Shown: in pieces, positions 9,669-31,564 of the stretch
Position numbering within the stretch: the first letter of the stretch is position 1
How the letters are laid out: each line of letters starts with the position of its first letter
Source: Salinisphaera orenii subsp. halophila YIM 95161
GTDB taxonomy: Bacteria > Pseudomonadota > Gammaproteobacteria > Nevskiales > Salinisphaeraceae
DNA length: 64,000 bases
Reading direction: 5' to 3'
Assembly: GCF_003732545.1 (NCBI RefSeq)
Contig: NZ_AYKF01000088.1
Coordinates: 1 to 64,000 of the forward strand
Made by a program: the position numbers and the translations under genes
The notes under the pieces: model-generated
Told to the model about the DNA's origin: nothing
The model's database searches: none
What the model saw: the letters and a program-made list of their open reading frames with translations, nothing else

Positions 9669-10886
9669 ATGGCCGAAGCTGCCGTCGTCGATGCCAAGAC
9701 CCGCGAGATCGACGAGCAGCGTCAGCGCGCGCTGCGGGCATTGCTGGCCCGGCCTCTGATGACCGCGGACGATCGGGCGTTTTCGCTGGTGCGCGCACAC
9801 GCCGATTATCTGCGGACCTGGTTCGCCCGCGAATGCGGTTGGGTGCTGCGCATCGAGCGTGGCCATGCGCGTCTGGCCAAACGCACAGCCGATGCGACTG
9901 ACGCCACCCGCGGGGCGCGCGAATTCAACCGCAATCGCTATATCCTGCTGTGTCTGGCGCTGGCTGTGCTGGAACGCGAGGACGTCCAGATCACGCTGGC
10001 GCGGCTGGGCGAGCGGCTGATGGTCGAAGCGCTGGATGACCAACTCGTGGCCAGCGGCTTCGTCTTTGCGCTGGATCGCCAGAGTCAGCGCCGTGACCTG
10101 GTGGCGGTCTGCCGGTTGCTGCTGGAACTAGGAATCATCGCCCGGGTGGCCGGCGACGAGGCGGCTTATATCAACCAGTCAGGCGATGCGCTCTACGATA
10201 TCCACCGGCCGATGCTGGCGGCCGTACTCGCCGGCGATCGCGGCCCGTCGGCCTTGGTGGATGCCCGCACCCTCGAAGCTCGGTTGGAAGCGCTTACCGC
10301 TGATAATCCGGCCGAAGGCGAGGACGCTCGGCGCACCGCGCTGCGCCATCGGCTGACGCGCCGGTTGCTGGATGACCCGTTGCTTTATCTCGACGATCTG
10401 GACGCCGACGAGCGCGAGTATTTCGTCAACCAGCGCGGGCCGATGGGCCGTCGGCTGGCCGAGGCCACGGGCTTGGTCGCCGAACACCGCGCCGAAGGCA
10501 GCGCCCTGGCCGATGCGCGCGGCGAGCTCACCGACGTTTCTCTGCCGCAGCAGGGCACCGACGCCCACGCGACGCTGCTGCTGGCCGAGTTTCTCGCCGA
10601 GCGTCTTCGATCCGGCCCAAACAATCATAAGGCCGGCCCGGTGCCGGAAGCCGAGATCCTGGCCTTCATGCGCGATGCCGCTCGTGAGCATCGTAAATAC
10701 TGGCGCAAGGCGACCCAGGAGGCCGGCGCCGAGCGCGTGCTCGCCGCGGCCGCGCTGGATCGCCTGGAAGCGCTGCGCCTGATCCGCCGCGCCGAGCAGA
10801 CGATTGAGCCGCTGCCCGCCATCTGTCGATTCCGACTCGGTGAAGCGCGCGTGACCACACAGACCGATTTATTGTCCGGCCTATGA
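9669..10886 (+). CDS. jetB: Wadjet type II JetB (DUF2398/TIGR02678 family)
   Basis: The 405-residue protein matches the DUF2398/TIGR02678 family, the winged-helix (kite-like) JetB subunit that binds the kleisin and bridges the SMC dimer. The N-terminal signature RALRALLARPLMTADD (about residues 20-35), then FARECGWVLRIERGHARLAK and RNRYILLCLALAVLER, is intact, so this gene was not truncated by the toxin-antitoxin insertion upstream. A Shine-Dalgarno site before 9669 is poor. The start instead overlaps the stop of an 11-codon frame (TGATG), which suggests re-initiation coupling. The stop overlaps the jetC start as ATGA at 10883. Function in plasmid restriction is inferred from family and context. 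Confidence 0.88.
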   Translation: MAEAAVVDAKTREIDEQRQRALRALLARPLMTADDRAFSLVRAHADYLRTWFARECGWVLRIERGHARLAKRTADATDATRGAREFNRNRYILLCLALAVLEREDVQITLARLGERLMVEALDDQLVASGFVFALDRQSQRRDLVAVCRLLLELGIIARVAGDEAAYINQSGDALYDIHRPMLAAVLAGDRGPSALVDARTLEARLEALTADNPAEGEDARRTALRHRLTRRLLDDPLLYLDDLDADEREYFVNQRGPMGRRLAEATGLVAEHRAEGSALADARGELTDVSLPQQGTDAHATLLLAEFLAERLRSGPNNHKAGPVPEAEILAFMRDAAREHRKYWRKATQEAGAERVLAAAALDRLEALRLIRRAEQTIEPLPAICRFRLGEARVTTQTDLLSGL

Positions 10887-13800
10887 CCGATATCCAATCC
10901 GTGGCTGATGCGCCGCAGCCGACAACCGACCGCTGGCAGCCGCTGCGGCTGGGTCTGGTCGAGTTGTACCACTACGACGCCGAGGAATTCTGGTTCGAGG
11001 ACGGTCATCTGCTGCTGCGCGGCAATAACGGCACCGGCAAATCCAAGGTGTTGTCGCTGACGCTGCCGTTTCTGCTGGACGCCAGCCTGTCCTCGGCGCG
11101 ACTCGAGCCGGATGCCGACCCCGGCAAGCGCATGGAGTGGAACCTGCTCATGGGCGGCCGCTTCGATCGGCGTACCGGCTATGCCTGGATCGAGTTCGGC
11201 CGTCTCGGCAACGACGGCACGCCGTATTTCGTTACGCTCGGCTGCGGCCTGCGCGCCACCGCCGGCCGGTCCGGCGTGGATTCCTGGTTTTTCTGTACCG
11301 AGCAGCGCGTCGGCCACGAGCTGGCGCTGGTCACGGAACAACAGACCGTGCTCACCCGCGACCGTCTGATCGAGGCCATCGGCAGCCACAGCGTGTATGC
11401 CACGGCCCGCGATTATCGGCGCGCGGTCGACGAGCGTCTGTTCCAGCTCGGGCCGGAACGCTATCGCGCGCTCATCGATACGCTGATCCAGCTGCGCCAG
11501 CCGCAATTGTCCAAGCAGCCCAACGAGAACAATCTCTCGGCCGCGCTGTCGCAGGCGTTTCCGCCGATTCGGCGGGAAGTGCTGGAGGACGTGGCCGAGG
11601 CCATGACCCAGCTCGATGAATACCGCGACGAACTGGATGATTATTGCGCCATGGCCGCCGCGGTCGGCCAGTTCAATGCCACTTACGGCCGCTATGCACA
11701 AATCCTCGCGCGCCGACGCGCCCGCGATCTGCGCCAGGCCCAGACGGCGTTCGACAACGCCAGCGGCGAGGCCCGCCAGGCTCGAGAAGCGCTCGCCGCC
11801 GCCCAGGCCGCGCTCGAAGCCGGCCAGGAAGAGGTCGACACCACCGAGAACCGGTATGCGGAAACCGGCGGTCAGATCGAGGTCTTGAAGGACAGCCCGG
11901 AAATGCGCAGCGCCCGCGAACTGCATCGCGCGGGGAGTGCGGCCGAGGCCGCCGAGCGCCATGCCGTGGATGCCACACGCCACCACGAACAGGTACAACG
12001 CCGCCACGAAGAAGACCGGGCCGCGCTGGCCCGCCGCGAGCAGACCTGTCACGGCTCGCGCGACGCGCTGACGGCCGCTGTGGACGCCAGCGACGCCTGC
12101 GCCGACAAAACGGGTATTCTTGCCGCGCATCGACAAAGCTGGGGTGACACGCGCGACGCCGACGCGCTGGGCCAGTTGCCTGCGTCGCAGCAAGCCGAGA
12201 TCGCCAGCGCGCAGAATCTCCTCGCGAGCCAGCGCGAAGGCCGGATCGCCCAGATCCGGCGCGATCTGGCCGCGGTCGATTCTGCCGGGCAGCAGCACGC
12301 CCAGGCCCAGCACGAACGCGATGCGCGATTGGCCGACAGCGAAGCCGCCGAGGGCGCCGTGAATGATGCCCGGCGTGCCCAGCAGGACGCGGGTACAAAC
12401 CATATCGCCGATTGGCAGCAATTCGGCGAGCGCGTGACGACCACGCTAGGCACGGGGGCCGCGCGCGACTGGCCGGATGCCGACGATGCGCTGGCGGACT
12501 GGGTCAACAGCCTCGACGGCGAATCGCCGCTGGAACGCCATACCCAGGCTGTCGCGGAGCGTGAGCGCCAGCGTCTGGCCGAGCGCGCGAGCGAAACCAA
12601 GCAGCAGCGCGCCGCCATCCAGGCCGAGCGCGAACCGCTGCTCGAAGAGCAGGCCCGGCTGCGCGAAGGCGGCCAGCCGGCACCACCGGCGCCGGCCACC
12701 CGCGAAGCTGATCGCAGCGACCGCCCCGGCGCGCCGTTGTGGCGGCTGGTGGATTTCAAGCCGGGGATCGACGACGCCGCACGCGCCGGCGTCGAGGCCG
12801 CACTCCAGGCCTCTGGCGTGCTCGATGCCTGGGTCAGTCCGGCCGGCGAACTGCTGGCGCCGGATACCCGCGATCAGTGGCTGGTGGCGCGCGCGGCACA
12901 GCCCGACAATCTCGGCGCGCTGCTGGACGTCGTCATCGACGCCGACGACCCGGCGGCCGCCGAGGTCGATGCGCGCCACGTCGACACGATTCTGGCCGCC
13001 ATCGCGGTGACTGACGAGGACGCCTCGGCCGCCGAGTTCTGGCTTGCCGGCGACGGGCGTTATCGCCTGGGCCCGACGCGCGGCGCCTGGGCCAAGCCGG
13101 CGGCCGAGTATATCGGCGGGGCCGCGCGCGAAGCCGCCCGTCGCCGGCGTCTGGCGGCCATCGAAACCGAGTTGGCCGCGCTGGCCGCGCGCGCCGAGCA
13201 AATCGCGGCCGAACTCGTGGCAATCGATCGCGAACGCGCCACGCTCAACACACTTATCGTCGAGCGTCCGAGCGCCGAGGCCCTGCGTTCGGCGCATGCC
13301 GGGCTTTCCGCCGCCGAGCGCAGCGCGGCCGGGGCGCGTGAGCGTCTGGCCGAGGCCGAAGACCGGCTGCAACGCGCTCGCAGTGCCTTTGATCGCGCTC
13401 GCGAAGCATTGCAGCTGGATGCCGACGATGCGCACTTGCCTGCCGAGCGCGAGGCGCTGGAGGCCGTGGCCGCCCATCTGGCGGAGTACAAGCTCGCGGT
13501 TCGCGATGCCGGGTCCGCGCTGCGCGAGCATGCCCGCGCGCTGACGGAGTTGCGCGAGCAGACCGAGCGCGAGCAGGCCAGCCACGCCGATCTCGAACAC
13601 GCCGCCGCCCGCGCTCGCGAGGCCCGGCAGGCCGCCGAACAGGCCGCCGCACGCCATCGCGAGCTCAAGGAAACGGTGGGTGCGAGCGCCGAGGACGTGC
13701 TGGCCCGGCTGAACGCGCTGGAACGCGAGCGCCAGACGCTGGATGAGACCCTCAAGGCCGCACGTACCCGGCTCACCCAGGCCCACAAACAACTCGGTGG

Positions 13801-20206: not shown

Positions 20207-20322
20207 ATTGTGTGCAGCATCGCGCAACGTCAATTAAAACCATGGGGCCTGATGCGCGATGCAAGACTCGCCCCAACTCCCACAGGCGCAGCGGCGACGG
20301 CGCCTTCGAGGGCTTGGACGTC

Positions 20323-20421
20323 TACAGCTACTGGATCGGGCTGAGCGTGGCCGCCGCCCTGCTCGGCCAACGGCTGGTGTGGGTGTCGCAGCTTCGGCGG
20401 CTATCGGCAGCCGGGCCGTGA
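20323..20421 (+). pseudogene. MATE efflux pump remnant (copy 2)
   Basis: The last 32 codons of a MATE-family exporter survive in one frame: YSYWIGLSVAAALLGQRL, then VWVSQLRRLSAAGP and a TGA stop. The match to the tail of the first remnant (18126-18407) is close at both DNA and protein level, differing at scattered positions. Nothing upstream continues the family. These are therefore two decayed copies, or one duplicated end, separated by the PEP-CTERM-type gene. Confidence 0.7.
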
Positions 20422-20819
20422 CGAAATCGAGGCAGCAGATGCCGTGGGCCACTGCCCACCCCGCCACCGGCCCCGCAAGACATGGTCCGGCAAAGGCCTC
20501 TTGTCCACGTCGATACGGGCCAGCGCTATGGCGCGACAGTCGTTTGCGCGCCGCCGTGGTGCACGGCGGCCTCCGGAATGAGGCGAGCGCCCCGGTACGG
20601 CGCGGGGCGCCCCAGCGCGCGCCGCTGCCGGCTCGCGGCCGATGCGTTCACCAAACTCATCGTCGCTTCGGATTTTTCAGCGTTCCCATCAACACTTGCC
20701 GCCGGGGCGCGGCCGTAAGAGCGGCCGATACGGCGGCGCACGGAGGCTTCGGCGCCCGTATGGCGCAACTATTGCTAGACCCTCTGCGCCTTATTCCATC
20801 TCCTTTCTGGGGGACAATC
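20422..20819. other. Gene-free stretch before the lipoprotein amidase
   Basis: About 400 nt with no gene that I can support. The last 80 nt are AT-richer and probably hold the promoter of the amidase gene. GGGGGA lies just before its start codon. Confidence 0.4.
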
Positions 20820-22481
20820 ATGGATCGATCACCTTGGTCACCGCGTGGCCGTGATTTTTCTGGCGTCGGCGGCAACGTTCGGCGGCTGACGCTCGCCGCG
20901 CTCGCGGCGCTCGCCCTGACCGCCTGCGATGACGACTCATCGGTCTCCGTCGACACTGACGACGATACGGCGAGCCCGACGTTCTCGTTGACGGAGACGA
21001 CCATCCCCGAGATCCATGCGGCGCTCGAATCAGGCAGCACGAGCTGCCGCGCCCTGGTGGCGGACTATCTCGAGCGCATCGAGGTCTACGACCAGAGCAC
21101 CACCGTAAACACCATGATCACGATCAACCCGGCGGCGCTCGAGCGCGCCGAGGCGATCGATGCACGGATCGCGGCCGGGGACGCGCTCGGCGAACTGTAC
21201 TGCGTGCCGGTCATCGTCAAGGACCTCTACGACACCGCCGACATGCCGACCAGCGGCGGCGTGCTTGCGCTGGCCGAGTCGGTGCCGCCGGACGACGCCC
21301 ACGTGGTGGCCGAACTCCGCGACGCGGACGCCATCATGCTCGGCAAGTCGAACATGGACGAATTCGCCTTTCACGCCGGCCATACCCTGAGTTCGGTCAC
21401 CGGCCAGACGCGCAACGCCTATGACGTCAGCCGCACGACGGCCGGTTCCAGCGGCGGCACGGCCTCCGCCGTCGCCGCCAACTTCGGCGCGGTCGGGGTC
21501 GGCAGCGATACCGGCAATTCCATTCGCGGCCCGTCGTCGCATCTCGCGCTCGTCGGCCTGCGCAGCACCATGGGGCTGATCAGCCGCGACGGCGTCATCC
21601 CGCTGAACTTCGACCGCGACATGACGGGCGCAATGACCCGTACGGTGGGGGACACGGCGCGCATGCTCAACGTGATCGCCGGCTACGATTCGGCCGACCC
21701 CATCACCACGCTGAGCGAGGACAACATTCCGGACGACTACACCGACGCCCTGCAGGCCGACGGCCTGGAAGGGGCGCGCTTCGGCGTGTTCCGCCGGCTC
21801 ATCGACGACACCGCGGACCCGGAGGTCGAAGCACTGTTCGAGCAGGCGATCGCCGACCTGCGCGCCGCCGGCGCGACAATCGTCGACCCGTTCGATGTCG
21901 ACGGTTATCAGGACGCCCTGCGCGGCGCCGAAAGCTGCCGCCGCTTCCGCTACGATCTCGACAACTATCTGGCCTCGCTCGGGCCCGACGCGCCAGTGCA
22001 GTCGCTGCAGGAGATCGTAGACAGTGGCGAATTCGCCGAGGCCCACGGCGAGCAGCTGCGCGGCAATCTCGAGGTGACCGAAACGCCCGCCGAACAGGGC
22101 TGTGCGGGCGAACCCGGCAACATCCGCGACAACCCGGGCCGCCAGGCGTTTCGGGACACCATGGTCAGCGCCATGGAAGCGGCCGACCTGGACGGGCTGA
22201 TCTATCCGACCTGGGACAATCCGCCGCAGCCCATCATCACCGACGACCCGGAAACCCGTGACGACCTGCCAGCCAACACCGGCGACAACAGCCAGGGCCT
22301 GGCGCCCGCCTCCGGCCAGCCGGCCATCACCGTCCCCATGGGCTTCACCGGCTCGGGACTGCCTACCGGCCTGCAGATCTTCGGCTATCCGTTCGCCGAG
22401 GCGGACCTCATCAAGTACGCCTACGCCTACGAGCAGGCGACACAACATCGCCATCCGCCCACGCTGTTCCCGGCGCTTTAG
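20820..22481 (+). CDS. Exported lipoprotein amidase (amidase signature family)
   Basis: The 553-residue product is an amidase-signature hydrolase. The Ser-cisSer-Lys triad is visible: Lys in VIVKDLYDTADMPTSGG (about residue 138) and the serines in TTAGSSGGTASAVAANFGAV with GSDTGNSIRGPSSH (about 205-238). The start is placed at 20820, behind GGGGGA. From there a signal sequence RRLTLAALAALALTAC ends in a lipobox (LTAC), followed by an Asp/Ser-rich linker, so the enzyme should be lipid-anchored outside the inner membrane. Most amidases are cytoplasmic, so this is a less common version; secreted peptide amidases are the nearest parallel. The substrate is unknown. A strong hairpin follows the gene at 22507-22538. 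Confidence 0.85.
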   Translation: MDRSPWSPRGRDFSGVGGNVRRLTLAALAALALTACDDDSSVSVDTDDDTASPTFSLTETTIPEIHAALESGSTSCRALVADYLERIEVYDQSTTVNTMITINPAALERAEAIDARIAAGDALGELYCVPVIVKDLYDTADMPTSGGVLALAESVPPDDAHVVAELRDADAIMLGKSNMDEFAFHAGHTLSSVTGQTRNAYDVSRTTAGSSGGTASAVAANFGAVGVGSDTGNSIRGPSSHLALVGLRSTMGLISRDGVIPLNFDRDMTGAMTRTVGDTARMLNVIAGYDSADPITTLSEDNIPDDYTDALQADGLEGARFGVFRRLIDDTADPEVEALFEQAIADLRAAGATIVDPFDVDGYQDALRGAESCRRFRYDLDNYLASLGPDAPVQSLQEIVDSGEFAEAHGEQLRGNLEVTETPAEQGCAGEPGNIRDNPGRQAFRDTMVSAMEAADLDGLIYPTWDNPPQPIITDDPETRDDLPANTGDNSQGLAPASGQPAITVPMGFTGSGLPTGLQIFGYPFAEADLIKYAYAYEQATQHRHPPTLFPAL

Positions 22482-27769: not shown

Positions 27770-29164
27770 TCAGATATCCGGGCGGCGTTGGTGCCAATCC
27801 GTTGCCGCCTCGTAGGCCGCCCCCAGACGCAACACCGTGGATTCGTCGAAGGGACGACCGATCGCCTGGAAACCGATCGGCAAGCCGTTTTCGGTGAAAC
27901 CGCAGGGCACGCTCATGGCCGGCAGGCCGGTGACGTTACCGGGCAGCGAGAAGCGCGTGTAGGCGGAGATGAGCGGCTCTTCGCTGCCGTCCGGCCAGGT
28001 GATGGATTCGGTGCCGGCGGTGACGGCGGTCGCAGCGACGGAGGGCGCGACGATGACGTCTACCTTGTCGTAGAGCTTGCGGAATTCCTGCTGTAGCAGA
28101 TTGCGTACGCGCTGGGCACGGATATAGGTGGTGGCGGGCACGAACTCGCCGGCTTCGAGCATGACGCGCACGTCGTCGTTATAGAGATGGGCGCTGTCGC
28201 GCAGCATCTGACGGTGGTAGTCGCTGGCTTCCGGCAACAGGATCGCGAACTCGACGGCGACGATCTGTTCCGGCATGGGCAGCGCGACGTCCACCAGTTC
28301 GGCGCCGAGTGATTCCAGCTGTTCGTAGGCCTTGCGGACGGCGGCTTCCACTTCTGCGTCCAGCTGGTCGAAGAAGTAGTTGGTGGGCACGCCGACGCGC
28401 AGGCCCTTGATGCCGTCGCGCAGGCCGGCCGAGTAATCCGGTACCGGTTCGTCCACCGAGCCGGGATCGCGCGGGTCGTAACCGGCGAGTACCTGCAGGC
28501 AGGTGGCGGCGTCCTCGACGGTGCGCGTGAGCGGCCCGGCGTGGTCCAGCCCCCAGGACAGCGAGGTGATGCCCGCGCGGCTGACGCGCCCGAAGGTGGG
28601 CTTGAGGCCGACCGTGCCGCACAGGCCGGCGGGGATACGGATCGAGCCGCCGGTGTCCGAGCCCATCGCCATGAAGGCGCCGGCCGAGGCGACGGTAGCG
28701 CCGGAGCCGCCGCTGGAACCGCCGGGCGTGCGCTCGGTATCCCAGGGATTGCGCGTGGTGGGCGTGACGATGCCGTAGGCGAATTCGTGGGTATGGGTCT
28801 TGCCGAGAACGATGGCGCCGGCGGCCTTGAGCCGTTCGGCGGCGGCGCTGTCGGCATTCGGCGTCCAGTTTTCGCGCACGCGGGACGAGGCGGTGGTGGG
28901 CACGTCGGCCAGGTCGTAGAGATCCTTCAGCGCAACGGGCACGCCGTGCAGCGGGCCTTTCCATTGGCCGGCAGCGATTTCCTTTTCGGCTTGTTTAGCC
29001 GCGGCGCGGGCCTCGTCGGCCAGCACACGTACATAGGCGTTGAGTTTTGGTTCCGTGGCGTCGATACGGGCGAGGCAGGCGTCGACCGCGTCGACGGGCG
29101 AGATGTCGCCCGCCTTGATCTTCTGCCCGAGTTTGGTCGCCGACAGGGAGAGTATGTCGTTCAT
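27770..29164 (-). CDS. Amidase of the GatA/AtzE type
   Basis: The 464-residue cytoplasmic enzyme is an amidase-signature hydrolase. It carries the catalytic Lys in GVPVALKDLYDLADVPT (about residue 78) and the serine pair in RTPGGSSGGSGATVASAG with GSDTGGSIRIPAGLCG (about 147-182). It overlaps by 4 nt a 66-residue GatC/AtzG-like gene. That pairing, and the length, match the AtzE/AtzG arrangement, where the small subunit stabilises a hydrolase of 1-carboxybiuret or related amides. GatA of the Gln-tRNA amidotransferase is unlikely because no gatB is present. The substrate cannot be fixed from sequence. The N-terminus MNDILSLSATKLGQKIKAGD is typical of the family. No terminator is obvious downstream. 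Confidence 0.85.
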   Translation of the reverse strand: MNDILSLSATKLGQKIKAGDISPVDAVDACLARIDATEPKLNAYVRVLADEARAAAKQAEKEIAAGQWKGPLHGVPVALKDLYDLADVPTTASSRVRENWTPNADSAAAERLKAAGAIVLGKTHTHEFAYGIVTPTTRNPWDTERTPGGSSGGSGATVASAGAFMAMGSDTGGSIRIPAGLCGTVGLKPTFGRVSRAGITSLSWGLDHAGPLTRTVEDAATCLQVLAGYDPRDPGSVDEPVPDYSAGLRDGIKGLRVGVPTNYFFDQLDAEVEAAVRKAYEQLESLGAELVDVALPMPEQIVAVEFAILLPEASDYHRQMLRDSAHLYNDDVRVMLEAGEFVPATTYIRAQRVRNLLQQEFRKLYDKVDVIVAPSVAATAVTAGTESITWPDGSEEPLISAYTRFSLPGNVTGLPAMSVPCGFTENGLPIGFQAIGRPFDESTVLRLGAAYEAATDWHQRRPDI

Positions 29165-29515: not shown

Positions 29516-31564
29516 TTGAAACACGTCATCACCGTCTCGATGGGGCCGTCCGCGCAGGACTATTCGTTTAAAACCAAATTCCTGGGGAACGACTTCACCG
29601 TTACACGCCAGGGCGCGGACGGCGACGAGGATCGGGCCTGGGATCTGCTGCGCCGTGCGCAGGCCGACGCCGATGCGGTGGGCCTGGGGATGATTCGCGA
29701 CCACTACGACGTGGGCACGCGGCGTTTCGTGCACAAGGACACGGACAAGCTGCTGAAGGTGGTGACACGGGTGCCGGCGACCACAGGCGCGGATCTGCGC
29801 CGCATGCTGCAGGTGCGCGCGGTGCGCCATGTGCAGAAGACCCTGGGCAACTATTTCAACAACGCGCTGGTGCTGTTCCTGTCGGGCACGGTGAACTACG
29901 ACATCGCGGTGGAGATGTCGCAGTACACGCCCAACCTGAGTTTTGCCGACGCGGTGTTGAAGACGGGCACGCCGGCCCTGTTGACGTCGTTGTCGCAGCT
30001 GGAGCTGTTCGCGACCGGCAGCACTATGGCCAACGGCATCTGGGCGGCCCGCAAGCTGGGCGCGGCGTTGCCCAAGCTGCCGAAGGTCAAGCAGCGCTTT
30101 CTGGCCAGGGAGATGGCCAAATCGCATGTGATCGTTGGCGCGATCGAGGATATCCGCGCCTTCGCCGGCGACGGCAATCTCAAGCGCAAGACGCTGCTCA
30201 GCTCGGCCATCGACGAAGAAAGCCTGGCCTGGCTGAAGGAACAGGAAGTCAATCTCGCGATCGATATCTGCCCGCAGCCGTTCAAGGAAGTGGTCGGCAT
30301 CAATGTGATCGAGGCGATGATTCTCGCCGCGACCGGGCTCGAACCGCAGGACCTTTCGGACGACGACCTGGCCGAGATCATCGACGAGCTCAAGCTCACC
30401 CCGCAGCTGCTGCACCCGACCGGGCAGTTTCGCAACGTGCGTCGCTTTGCCTTCATCATCCATCCGCTCAGCCAGGAAGCCATCCGGATGGGTTTTCCGC
30501 TGCTGCCGAAATCCACGCCCAAGCGCGTGATGGACCAGATCGAGAAGGCCGCCGCCATGGTGCCGCCCATGGTGTACTGCAAGATGACCAACATCGTCTC
30601 GCCGACCGGCTCCGAAGCGGAGGGCTGGCTGATTTCGGTGGGCGGCACGCCGAAGGAAATGCTCGCCCGCAGCCCGGAATTTACCTATCGCCGGCTGCTC
30701 GCCGCGGCGGACAAGGCACAGAAGATGGGCGCGCAGATCATCGGCCTCGGCGCGTTCACGAAAGTGGTCGGCGACGCGGGCGTGACCGTGGCCCGACGCG
30801 CGAACCTGCCGGTGACCACCGGCAACAGCTATTCGGCGTCCGGCGCGCTCTGGGCCGCGGCGGACGCGATGCGCCGCATGGGCCTGGTGGAAGCGCCGAA
30901 AGACGGCCGCGTACAGGCCAAGACCATGGTGATCGGCGCCACCGGCTCGATCGGATCGGTGAGCGCGCGCCTGCTGGCGATGGCGTTCGACGAGGTGTAT
31001 CTCGCCGGCCGCGACCAGAAGAAACTCGAGGCGCTGAAGGCCTCCATCCTCAAGGAAACGCCGGACGCCAAGGTGGTCGCGGCGGCCGACTACGAGGGGC
31101 ATCTGGCCGAGATGGACATGATCGTCACCTCGACCTCGGGTGCGGGCAAGAAGGTGTTGGACATTACAAAGGTGAAGCCCGGCTGCGTGATCACCGACGT
31201 GGCCCGCCCGCTCGACCTGCCGCCCGAGGAATGCGCCAAGCGCCCGGACGTGCTGGTGATCGAATCCGGCGAAATCGACCTGCCCTCCAGGGTGCAGGGC
31301 CTGCGTGACATCACCCTGCCGGAAAACATCGTCTACGCCTGTCTGGCGGAGACCATCGTGCTGGCGCTGGAAGGTCGATTCGAGGTGTTCACGGTCGGGC
31401 GCGATACCGAGTGGCGCAAGGTCAAGGAGATTTACAAACTCGGCCTCAAGCACGGCATGAAGCTGGCCTCGATCTCCGGCGTGAACGGCGTCTACACCGA
31501 CGAGGACATCGCCAAGGTGGTCGAACTCGCACGCGAACGACGCAAGACCTGGCAGACCGGCTAG
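29516..31564 (+). CDS. Large Rossmann oxidoreductase with acyl-ACP reductase-like C-terminal half
   Basis: The 682-residue protein resembles cyanobacterial long-chain acyl-ACP reductase (AAR) and bacterial proteins labelled shikimate dehydrogenase-like over its second half. The order of elements agrees: RFAFIIHPLS, AQIIGLGAFTKVVGDAGV, TTGNSYSASGALWAAADAM, the nucleotide-binding VIGATGSIGSVSARLLA, DVARPLDLPPEE and LPENIVYACLAETIVLALEG. The first ~300 residues form an extra helical domain that I do not recognise. AAR reduces fatty acyl-ACP to aldehyde with NADPH. Whether this protein does so is unproven, as no aldehyde-deformylating oxygenase gene is nearby. The start is TTG at 29516 with GGGGAG 8 nt upstream. 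It is transcribed alone and divergently from the amidase pair. Confidence 0.7.
   Translation: MKHVITVSMGPSAQDYSFKTKFLGNDFTVTRQGADGDEDRAWDLLRRAQADADAVGLGMIRDHYDVGTRRFVHKDTDKLLKVVTRVPATTGADLRRMLQVRAVRHVQKTLGNYFNNALVLFLSGTVNYDIAVEMSQYTPNLSFADAVLKTGTPALLTSLSQLELFATGSTMANGIWAARKLGAALPKLPKVKQRFLAREMAKSHVIVGAIEDIRAFAGDGNLKRKTLLSSAIDEESLAWLKEQEVNLAIDICPQPFKEVVGINVIEAMILAATGLEPQDLSDDDLAEIIDELKLTPQLLHPTGQFRNVRRFAFIIHPLSQEAIRMGFPLLPKSTPKRVMDQIEKAAAMVPPMVYCKMTNIVSPTGSEAEGWLISVGGTPKEMLARSPEFTYRRLLAAADKAQKMGAQIIGLGAFTKVVGDAGVTVARRANLPVTTGNSYSASGALWAAADAMRRMGLVEAPKDGRVQAKTMVIGATGSIGSVSARLLAMAFDEVYLAGRDQKKLEALKASILKETPDAKVVAAADYEGHLAEMDMIVTSTSGAGKKVLDITKVKPGCVITDVARPLDLPPEECAKRPDVLVIESGEIDLPSRVQGLRDITLPENIVYACLAETIVLALEGRFEVFTVGRDTEWRKVKEIYKLGLKHGMKLASISGVNGVYTDEDIAKVVELARERRKTWQTG

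Follow-up and report, generated by a model that had tools for sequence, protein, structure and literature searches.

What does a protein do when its C-terminal half resembles an acyl-ACP reductase (AAR) and its N-terminal half is listed in no family? This question is raised by a 682-residue protein encoded in a 64,000-nucleotide stretch of DNA from a salt-loving Salinisphaera (the window). A first-pass annotation had described the protein as AAR-like in its C-terminal half, about twice as long as AAR and from an apparent gammaproteobacterium, and all three descriptions hold. By sequence, the protein is an acyl thioester reductase of the AAR/PigE type whose architecture is new. We consider it probably a two-lobed, NAD(P)H-dependent fatty acyl thioester reductase that would form aldehydes and most likely feed alcohols or wax esters.

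The gene and its reductase domain

The open reading frame is a genuine coding gene. Between the window gene and its copy in the Salinisphaera NP40 metagenome-assembled genome (MAG), 60, 27 and 168 substitutions fall at codon positions 1, 2 and 3 over 680 codons, and GC content at these positions is 63, 43 and 88%. A 727-residue open reading frame on the antisense strand is a by-product of this high GC. The TTG start codon is very likely right, since it aligns with ATG in five relatives (L005, L006, L017, L021 and L022) and is preceded, six bases upstream, by GGGGAG.

Table 1 Features of the fused gene and its divergent neighbour in the window.
Feature	Position	Strand	Basis or remark
Neighbouring amidase (PF01425), divergent from the fused gene; not counted in the system	27770..29164	-	Pfam
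Whole gene: N domain (Cys-less, probably AAR-fold) fused to AAR/PigE-type acyl thioester reductase	29516..31564	+	682 aa and stop, TTG start
N domain, residues 1-309, AAR-like fold in prediction	29516..30442	+	No family in Pfam, NCBIfam or PDB sequences
Asn263 codon (AAT), facing the catalytic Cys of the C domain	30302..30304	+	N-C profile alignment
C domain, AAR/PigE-type reductase, residues 310-682	30443..31561	+	PDB sequence, NCBIfam, profile and Foldseek matches
GATGSIG dinucleotide-binding motif, residues 474-480	30935..30955	+	Sequence
Cys609 codon, equivalent of AAR Cys294 (acyl-thioester nucleophile)	31340..31342	+	Pairwise alignment, residue counted there

Among PDB sequences, residues 310-649 match PigE (4ppm, E 8.5e-28) and residues 347-652 match AAR (6jzq, E 3.3e-18). 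The NCBIfam models rank in the same order: the PigE profile NF053554 reaches 184.8 bits (E 2.6e-54) over positions 1-360 of 837, below its curated cut-off of 850 bits, and the AAR profile TIGR04058 reaches 77.3 bits (E 1.3e-21), below its equivalog cut-off of 449.7 bits. By these alignments, the C half resembles AAR much more than chance would allow, and the fused protein is not a close AAR (77 bits against about 450). Cys609 pairs with residue 294 of 6jzq, which PMC8187606 gives as Cys294 together with the AAR domain limits, and this Cys is kept in all 52 C domains that we gathered. The three glycines of GxxGxxG are likewise kept in 52 of 52, one of which has a gap inside the motif. Reductase-domain homology, Cys and nucleotide motif, the marks of the broad AAR/PigE-type thioester reductase family, are thus all present in the C half; the broad label COG5322 is used for this family in PMC10829540 and PMC6498172. 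A full-length AF2 model was poor (pLDDT 56, pTM 0.40) and was used with caution; submitted to Foldseek, this low-confidence model returned AAR at ranks 1-7, with a best E of 2.1e-12.

Pfam recognises only the nucleotide domain of the fused protein, through generic Rossmann matches (Sacchrp_dh_NADP, Shikimate_DH), and such matches might point to a dehydrogenase of the amino acid or shikimate type instead of an acyl reductase. We regard that reading as very improbable: the Pfam matches end with the nucleotide domain, whereas PigE and AAR align over residues 310-652, catalytic Cys included. The first-pass annotation had itself named best matches to amino-acid dehydrogenases lacking this Cys as the outcome that would overturn its proposal; PigE and AAR proved to be the best matches, and Cys609 is in place. 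The same Pfam scan found no class III aminotransferase domain within residues 1-682. Residues 575-649 (window 31238-31462) show a weak Pfam match to a plant CER1-like C-terminal domain (E 0.027, in one of 28 C domains), which may be chance or may reflect a remote link to alkane enzymes of plants.

An unlisted N domain, probably of AAR fold

The first-pass annotation left the N-terminal 300 residues or so as a domain of unknown kind and proposed searching each half separately. Such searches return PigE and AAR in NCBIfam for the C half and nothing for the N half, which has no Pfam or NCBIfam match up to E 1; a 27-member N profile finds no PDB sequence up to E 10. Assignment of the N half to a known family was rejected, as each listed family was hit by only one of the 27 members, in a chance-like manner. 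The absence from these libraries stands, and our results revise the rest: the domain is probably a Cys-less paralogue of AAR fold, with a stand-alone family elsewhere.

In a profile-profile comparison, the N and C halves match collinearly over 223 columns. The hhalign score of 34.9 compares with a mean of 15.6 (sd 2.4, maximum 21.8, n = 200) for column-permuted C profiles. When alignments of 55 N rows and 52 C rows were used, with domain matches under about 150 residues left out, the score was 39.95 (E 1.2e-4, probability 55) against a permuted mean of 16.0 (sd 2.8, maximum 26.1, n = 150). A shared Rossmann fold alone is insufficient to explain this match, because the N profile scores lower against SDR profiles (25.8) and against glutamyl-tRNA reductase (GluTR; 17.4 and 17.6). 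Comparisons between sub-families were weaker (n = 4): one missed the register, one covered 62 columns only, and the best score of 25.6 was barely above the permuted maximum of 24.4 (n = 100). The alignment pairs IIGLGAF with AVGLGMI, LPVTTGNS with VPATTGAD, and ACLAETIVLALEG with INVIEAMILAATG, and the order of predicted helices and strands agrees between the halves of the low-confidence model.

Structure prediction of the N domain, also proposed at the outset, gave a divided answer. Modelled alone from an alignment of five sequences, the domain reached pLDDT 67 and pTM 0.68. In VIA-align, AAR or carmabin TAD chains fill the first eight rows for this model (Z 11.6-12.3), with a best Z of 12.3 and an rmsd of 4.7-4.9 Å over 246-253 residues for AAR-type chains; malic enzymes (Z 10.0 and 9.9) and then periplasmic-binding folds (from 9.8 down) follow. 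Foldseek ordered its matches differently and placed sugar-binding proteins first.

Both catalytic marks of an AAR reductase are missing from the N half. At the column facing the catalytic Cys, Asn occupies 50 of the 54 rows with letters and Cys none, with one further row a gap, and the stretch facing GxxGxxG reads SAVDRFG, SGTVNYD or other strings that lack the motif. The N half is therefore probably a diverged, Cys-less AAR-fold domain without the glycine motif, for which the evidence from profiles and models is good, if not final. As far as our literature searches reach, the N-C pair is undescribed.

Split genes in Actinomycetota and a patchy fused form

The halves are mostly separate genes in the Actinomycetota genomes with a match. 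The full-length alignment was matched in 53 of 396 such genomes, in a search that scored at most two candidates per genome and to which separate N and C searches were added; three of the 53 are fused (G458, G796 and G805). The 54 loci that we read come from 49 of the 53 genomes, with one Pseudomonadota genome added; four genomes gave two loci each, and aminotransferase matches weaker than 1e-60 were left out. G458 (read as L019/L108), G589, G716 and G755 stand outside this count. N lies directly upstream of C in 22 loci, an aminotransferase and an SRPBCC gene separate N from C in 14, two loci are fused (G796, G805), nine hold N only and seven C only. The 36 unfused pairs all have the same arrangement, with N upstream of C and both on one strand.

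The genes around N and C form a recognisable cluster. By Pfam naming, the upstream side of the split loci carries an L-aspartate-oxidase-like gene, nadC, birA, bioY and a type III pantothenate kinase gene, often followed before N by an HtrA-like protease and then by an unlisted 206-residue protein; greA, a class II (lysS-like) tRNA synthetase, clpC-like and radA-like genes come after N and C. The 206-residue protein (for example L099:6876-7493) has no Pfam or NCBIfam match and sits directly upstream of N in many split loci, where its gene often overlaps the N gene. One actinobacterial locus holds two consecutive N genes upstream of C (L190:8980-9900 and 9924-10928, minus strand).

The 14 loci with inserted genes (L089, L095-L098, L178, L189, L193, L195, L196 and L199-L202) bear on an amine-forming role. 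The inserted aminotransferase is class III, of the putrescine/PigE kind (NF053554, E 2.2e-124), and the SRPBCC protein is of the polyketide cyclase/lipid transport type. These operons therefore hold both PigE activities as separate genes and are a candidate long-chain amine pathway. The fused protein might by extension act like PigE, TamH and KecF and supply an aldehyde for transamination, by a transaminase whose gene lies elsewhere in the genome; the proposal also draws on PigE being the best library match of the C half. All 14 aminotransferase-bearing loci are unfused, however, and the sole aminotransferase in the scanned part of the neighbourhoods of fused genes is GSA-aminomutase-like and lies 5 kb upstream, in L019; we thus find amine formation by the fused protein unlikely.

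N and C also occur without each other. Two N-only loci (L184, L188) have C on another contig of the same genome. In all seven of the small Actinomycetota genomes behind L169-L175, whose assemblies may be incomplete, C is absent from the whole assembly and N is retained within the cluster between the pantothenate kinase and greA/lysS genes. Conversely, of 11 genomes searched for N, the four fused ones have it, and seven with a C match lack it, again in assemblies that may be incomplete (G555, G693, G558, G589 and G096, plus G190 and G394, which carry PigE-like fusions); in G555, C sits in the usual gene cluster. Over 16 loci, the N-C distance correlation is 0.79, against 0.87 and 0.88 for N or C with LysS, and with LysS as control the partial r of 0.13 does not support co-evolution beyond shared descent. 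The N-only and C-only genomes and these correlations speak against N as a dedicated partner of C.

Such independence raises the possibility that N is an enzyme or binding protein with a substrate of its own, and that the fusion joins two steps of a pathway. Stand-alone N proteins, for which a label 'quinate 5-dehydrogenase' may be in use, have strongly conserved motifs (SLGSSKRD, RxGTDGD, DGSGL and TTTP...GTNVxEA), and seven genomes keep N without C. The same motifs are weakened in the fused forms, and the predicted fold of N resembles the reductase minus its catalytic groups; we judge this explanation less likely than not.

The fused form is patchy. It occurs in four of 14 genomes of the genus and in seven of 61 genomes overall, the source genome included in both counts, and four further genomes of the 61 show short Rossmann matches only; across 398 Pseudomonadota genomes, the whole protein is found in three, again including its own. 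Five relatives are named: two Salinisphaera MAGs (88 and 86% identity), which agree with the gammaproteobacterial origin suggested at first, a record labelled Endozoicomonas sp. G2_2 (99%), an Ectothiorhodospiraceae MAG (85%) and an Actinomycetota MAG (48%). The Endozoicomonas label of the 99% identical protein (L015, NZ_JAGHQU010000008.1) looks wrong, because this record's match sits at the same contig position as the one in G009, a genome placed in the window's genus. In one relative (L018, G007:C58) the gene is broken near residue 480 by a run of N, with no recognisable insertion. The Ectothiorhodospiraceae MAG carries, 6 kb from its intact fused gene, a short degenerate second copy of the N-domain start (L017:1588-1860, plus strand), with about 45% identity over residues 8-83 before a frame change.

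In a quick tree built from 54 C domains, including two outgroup sequences, the ten fused forms make up one branch (SH-aLRT 100) that unites Gammaproteobacteria and Actinomycetota, in an analysis where the program flagged long branches that meet. A single fusion with later transfer is the simplest reading, as the fused forms share one branch across both groups. Viral contigs yielded no relative of the fused protein. Plasmid matches are confined to the C half and number 16 records, of which 13 bear a class III aminotransferase annotation and three no gene label; a search with N alone found no match. What the computation establishes is homology, a kept catalytic Cys and nucleotide motif, and the fusion of two halves that are separate genes in other genomes.

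Neighbouring genes and a putative aldehyde route

In relatives, the neighbours of the fused gene suggest a chemistry of fatty aldehydes, alcohols and wax esters. In L019 (6487-10867), a WS/DGAT gene and the beginning of the fused gene share four bases, provided that the latter starts at its first ATG, and an SDR gene follows downstream. An iron-alcohol dehydrogenase gene lies downstream in L105 (10261-11565), an alkyl sulfatase gene upstream in L104 (303-2363) and a fatty acid desaturase gene just upstream in L017. No lipid-family gene was found among ten open reading frames scanned near the window gene, or among the small number of further neighbours covered in L015, L016, L106 and L107. The first-pass suggestion of fatty aldehydes for wax ester or other lipid synthesis accordingly draws support from the neighbours in three relatives and none from the ten open reading frames scanned near the window gene.

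The gene beside the fused one in the window is instead an amidase, whose orthologue (84%) also adjoins the fused gene in L016 (10278-11672) and in L018/L109 (L109:10749-12158); it is upstream and divergent in the window and downstream and convergent in these two. We see no metabolic reason for this adjacency. A second PF01425 amidase-family gene is present at window 20259-22481 (plus strand), with a 265-residue N-terminal extension that has no Pfam match at threshold.

Genome content places the fused gene among other routes. WS/DGAT occurs in 59 of 61 relatives and in all four genomes behind the named loci; its co-presence was rejected as evidence, being near-universal. A 666-residue SDR protein, which we take to be an alcohol-forming FAR, has a relative in the source genome (60% identity) and is matched in 57 of the 61, with a partial match only in G023, which carries the fused gene. 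The function of the fused reductase is possibly redundant or different in view of this SDR protein, and given the breadth of both families the fused gene looks like an extra, patchy aldehyde route and not the sole one. Aldehyde-deformylating oxygenase (ADO; PF11266) was found in none of the 61 genomes, the source genome included, and was detected in the control, Synechococcus elongatus. An alkane pathway was rejected on this ground, and alkanes are not expected.

We propose that Cys609 in the C half accepts a long-chain acyl group carried by ACP or CoA, as the homology of this half suggests, and that the enzyme thioester would be reduced to the free aldehyde by a cofactor at GATGSIG, in the manner of AAR and the PigE/TamH reductase domains. 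We infer the long-chain substrate, the aldehyde product and its use for alcohols or wax esters; judging from neighbours in relatives, the aldehyde would most likely pass to the alcohol and then, via a wax-ester synthase, to the ester. The N half, probably a copy of the reductase fold that diverged long ago and lacks both Cys and glycine motif, may lie against the reductase and influence how substrate or a partner binds, the weakest step of the scheme. A broader and quite tentative model is a two-component reductase, in which an active AAR-type subunit and its own Cys-less paralogue would form a pseudo-symmetric heterodimer, encoded side by side in Actinomycetota, fused once, moved between Actinomycetota and Gammaproteobacteria and wired there into wax-ester synthesis.

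Aldehyde-forming acyl reductases that serve the making of wax esters and fatty alcohols are a small set, which such a protein would extend by a new architecture. The protein also offers a first foothold on an N-domain family absent from Pfam and NCBIfam and found within a conserved cofactor/translation cluster of many Actinomycetota. If N modulates the reductase, it would offer a way to approach a class of enzymes for which assays are difficult, and the split and fused forms make modulation directly testable.

Comparison with known systems

SDR-type fatty acyl reductases (Acr1, Marinobacter FAR) belong to another sequence family, to which the window protein has no match above cut-offs; presumably they share its reaction class, and the 666-residue SDR protein is, we assume, of similar look. 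GluTR, which has a tRNA substrate and a dimer helix, is distantly related to the C half (hhalign probability 94.8 and 96.0) and is not matched by the N half. The Nevskia enzyme Ramo was dropped as an AAR-like lead, as PMC5806253 calls it an Acr1 homologue.

AAR itself (TIGR04058; 6JZQ, 6JZU, 6JZY and 6JZZ) shares with the window protein the homology over residues 347-652, GxxGxxG and the equivalent of Cys294. The window protein, unlike AAR, is twice as long, bears a Cys-less N domain, scores far under the equivalog cut-off and has no ADO in its genome.

Among library entries, PigE of prodigiosin biosynthesis comes closest to the C half. For PigE, TamH, KecF and TAm-AAR fusions, conversion of a thioester to an aldehyde is proposed or shown in PMC8341465, PMC9594044, PMC10829540 and PMC6498172. 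Thioester reduction by PigE is reported there with lysate, purified PigE giving no detectable NAD(P)H consumption (PMC8341465), and TamH is described as converting an ACP-bound acyl chain to an amine via the aldehyde and as not using acyl-CoA (PMC9594044), so that even these kin are hard to assay. In all of these enzymes an aminotransferase is fused to the reductase, whereas the window protein has the N domain instead.
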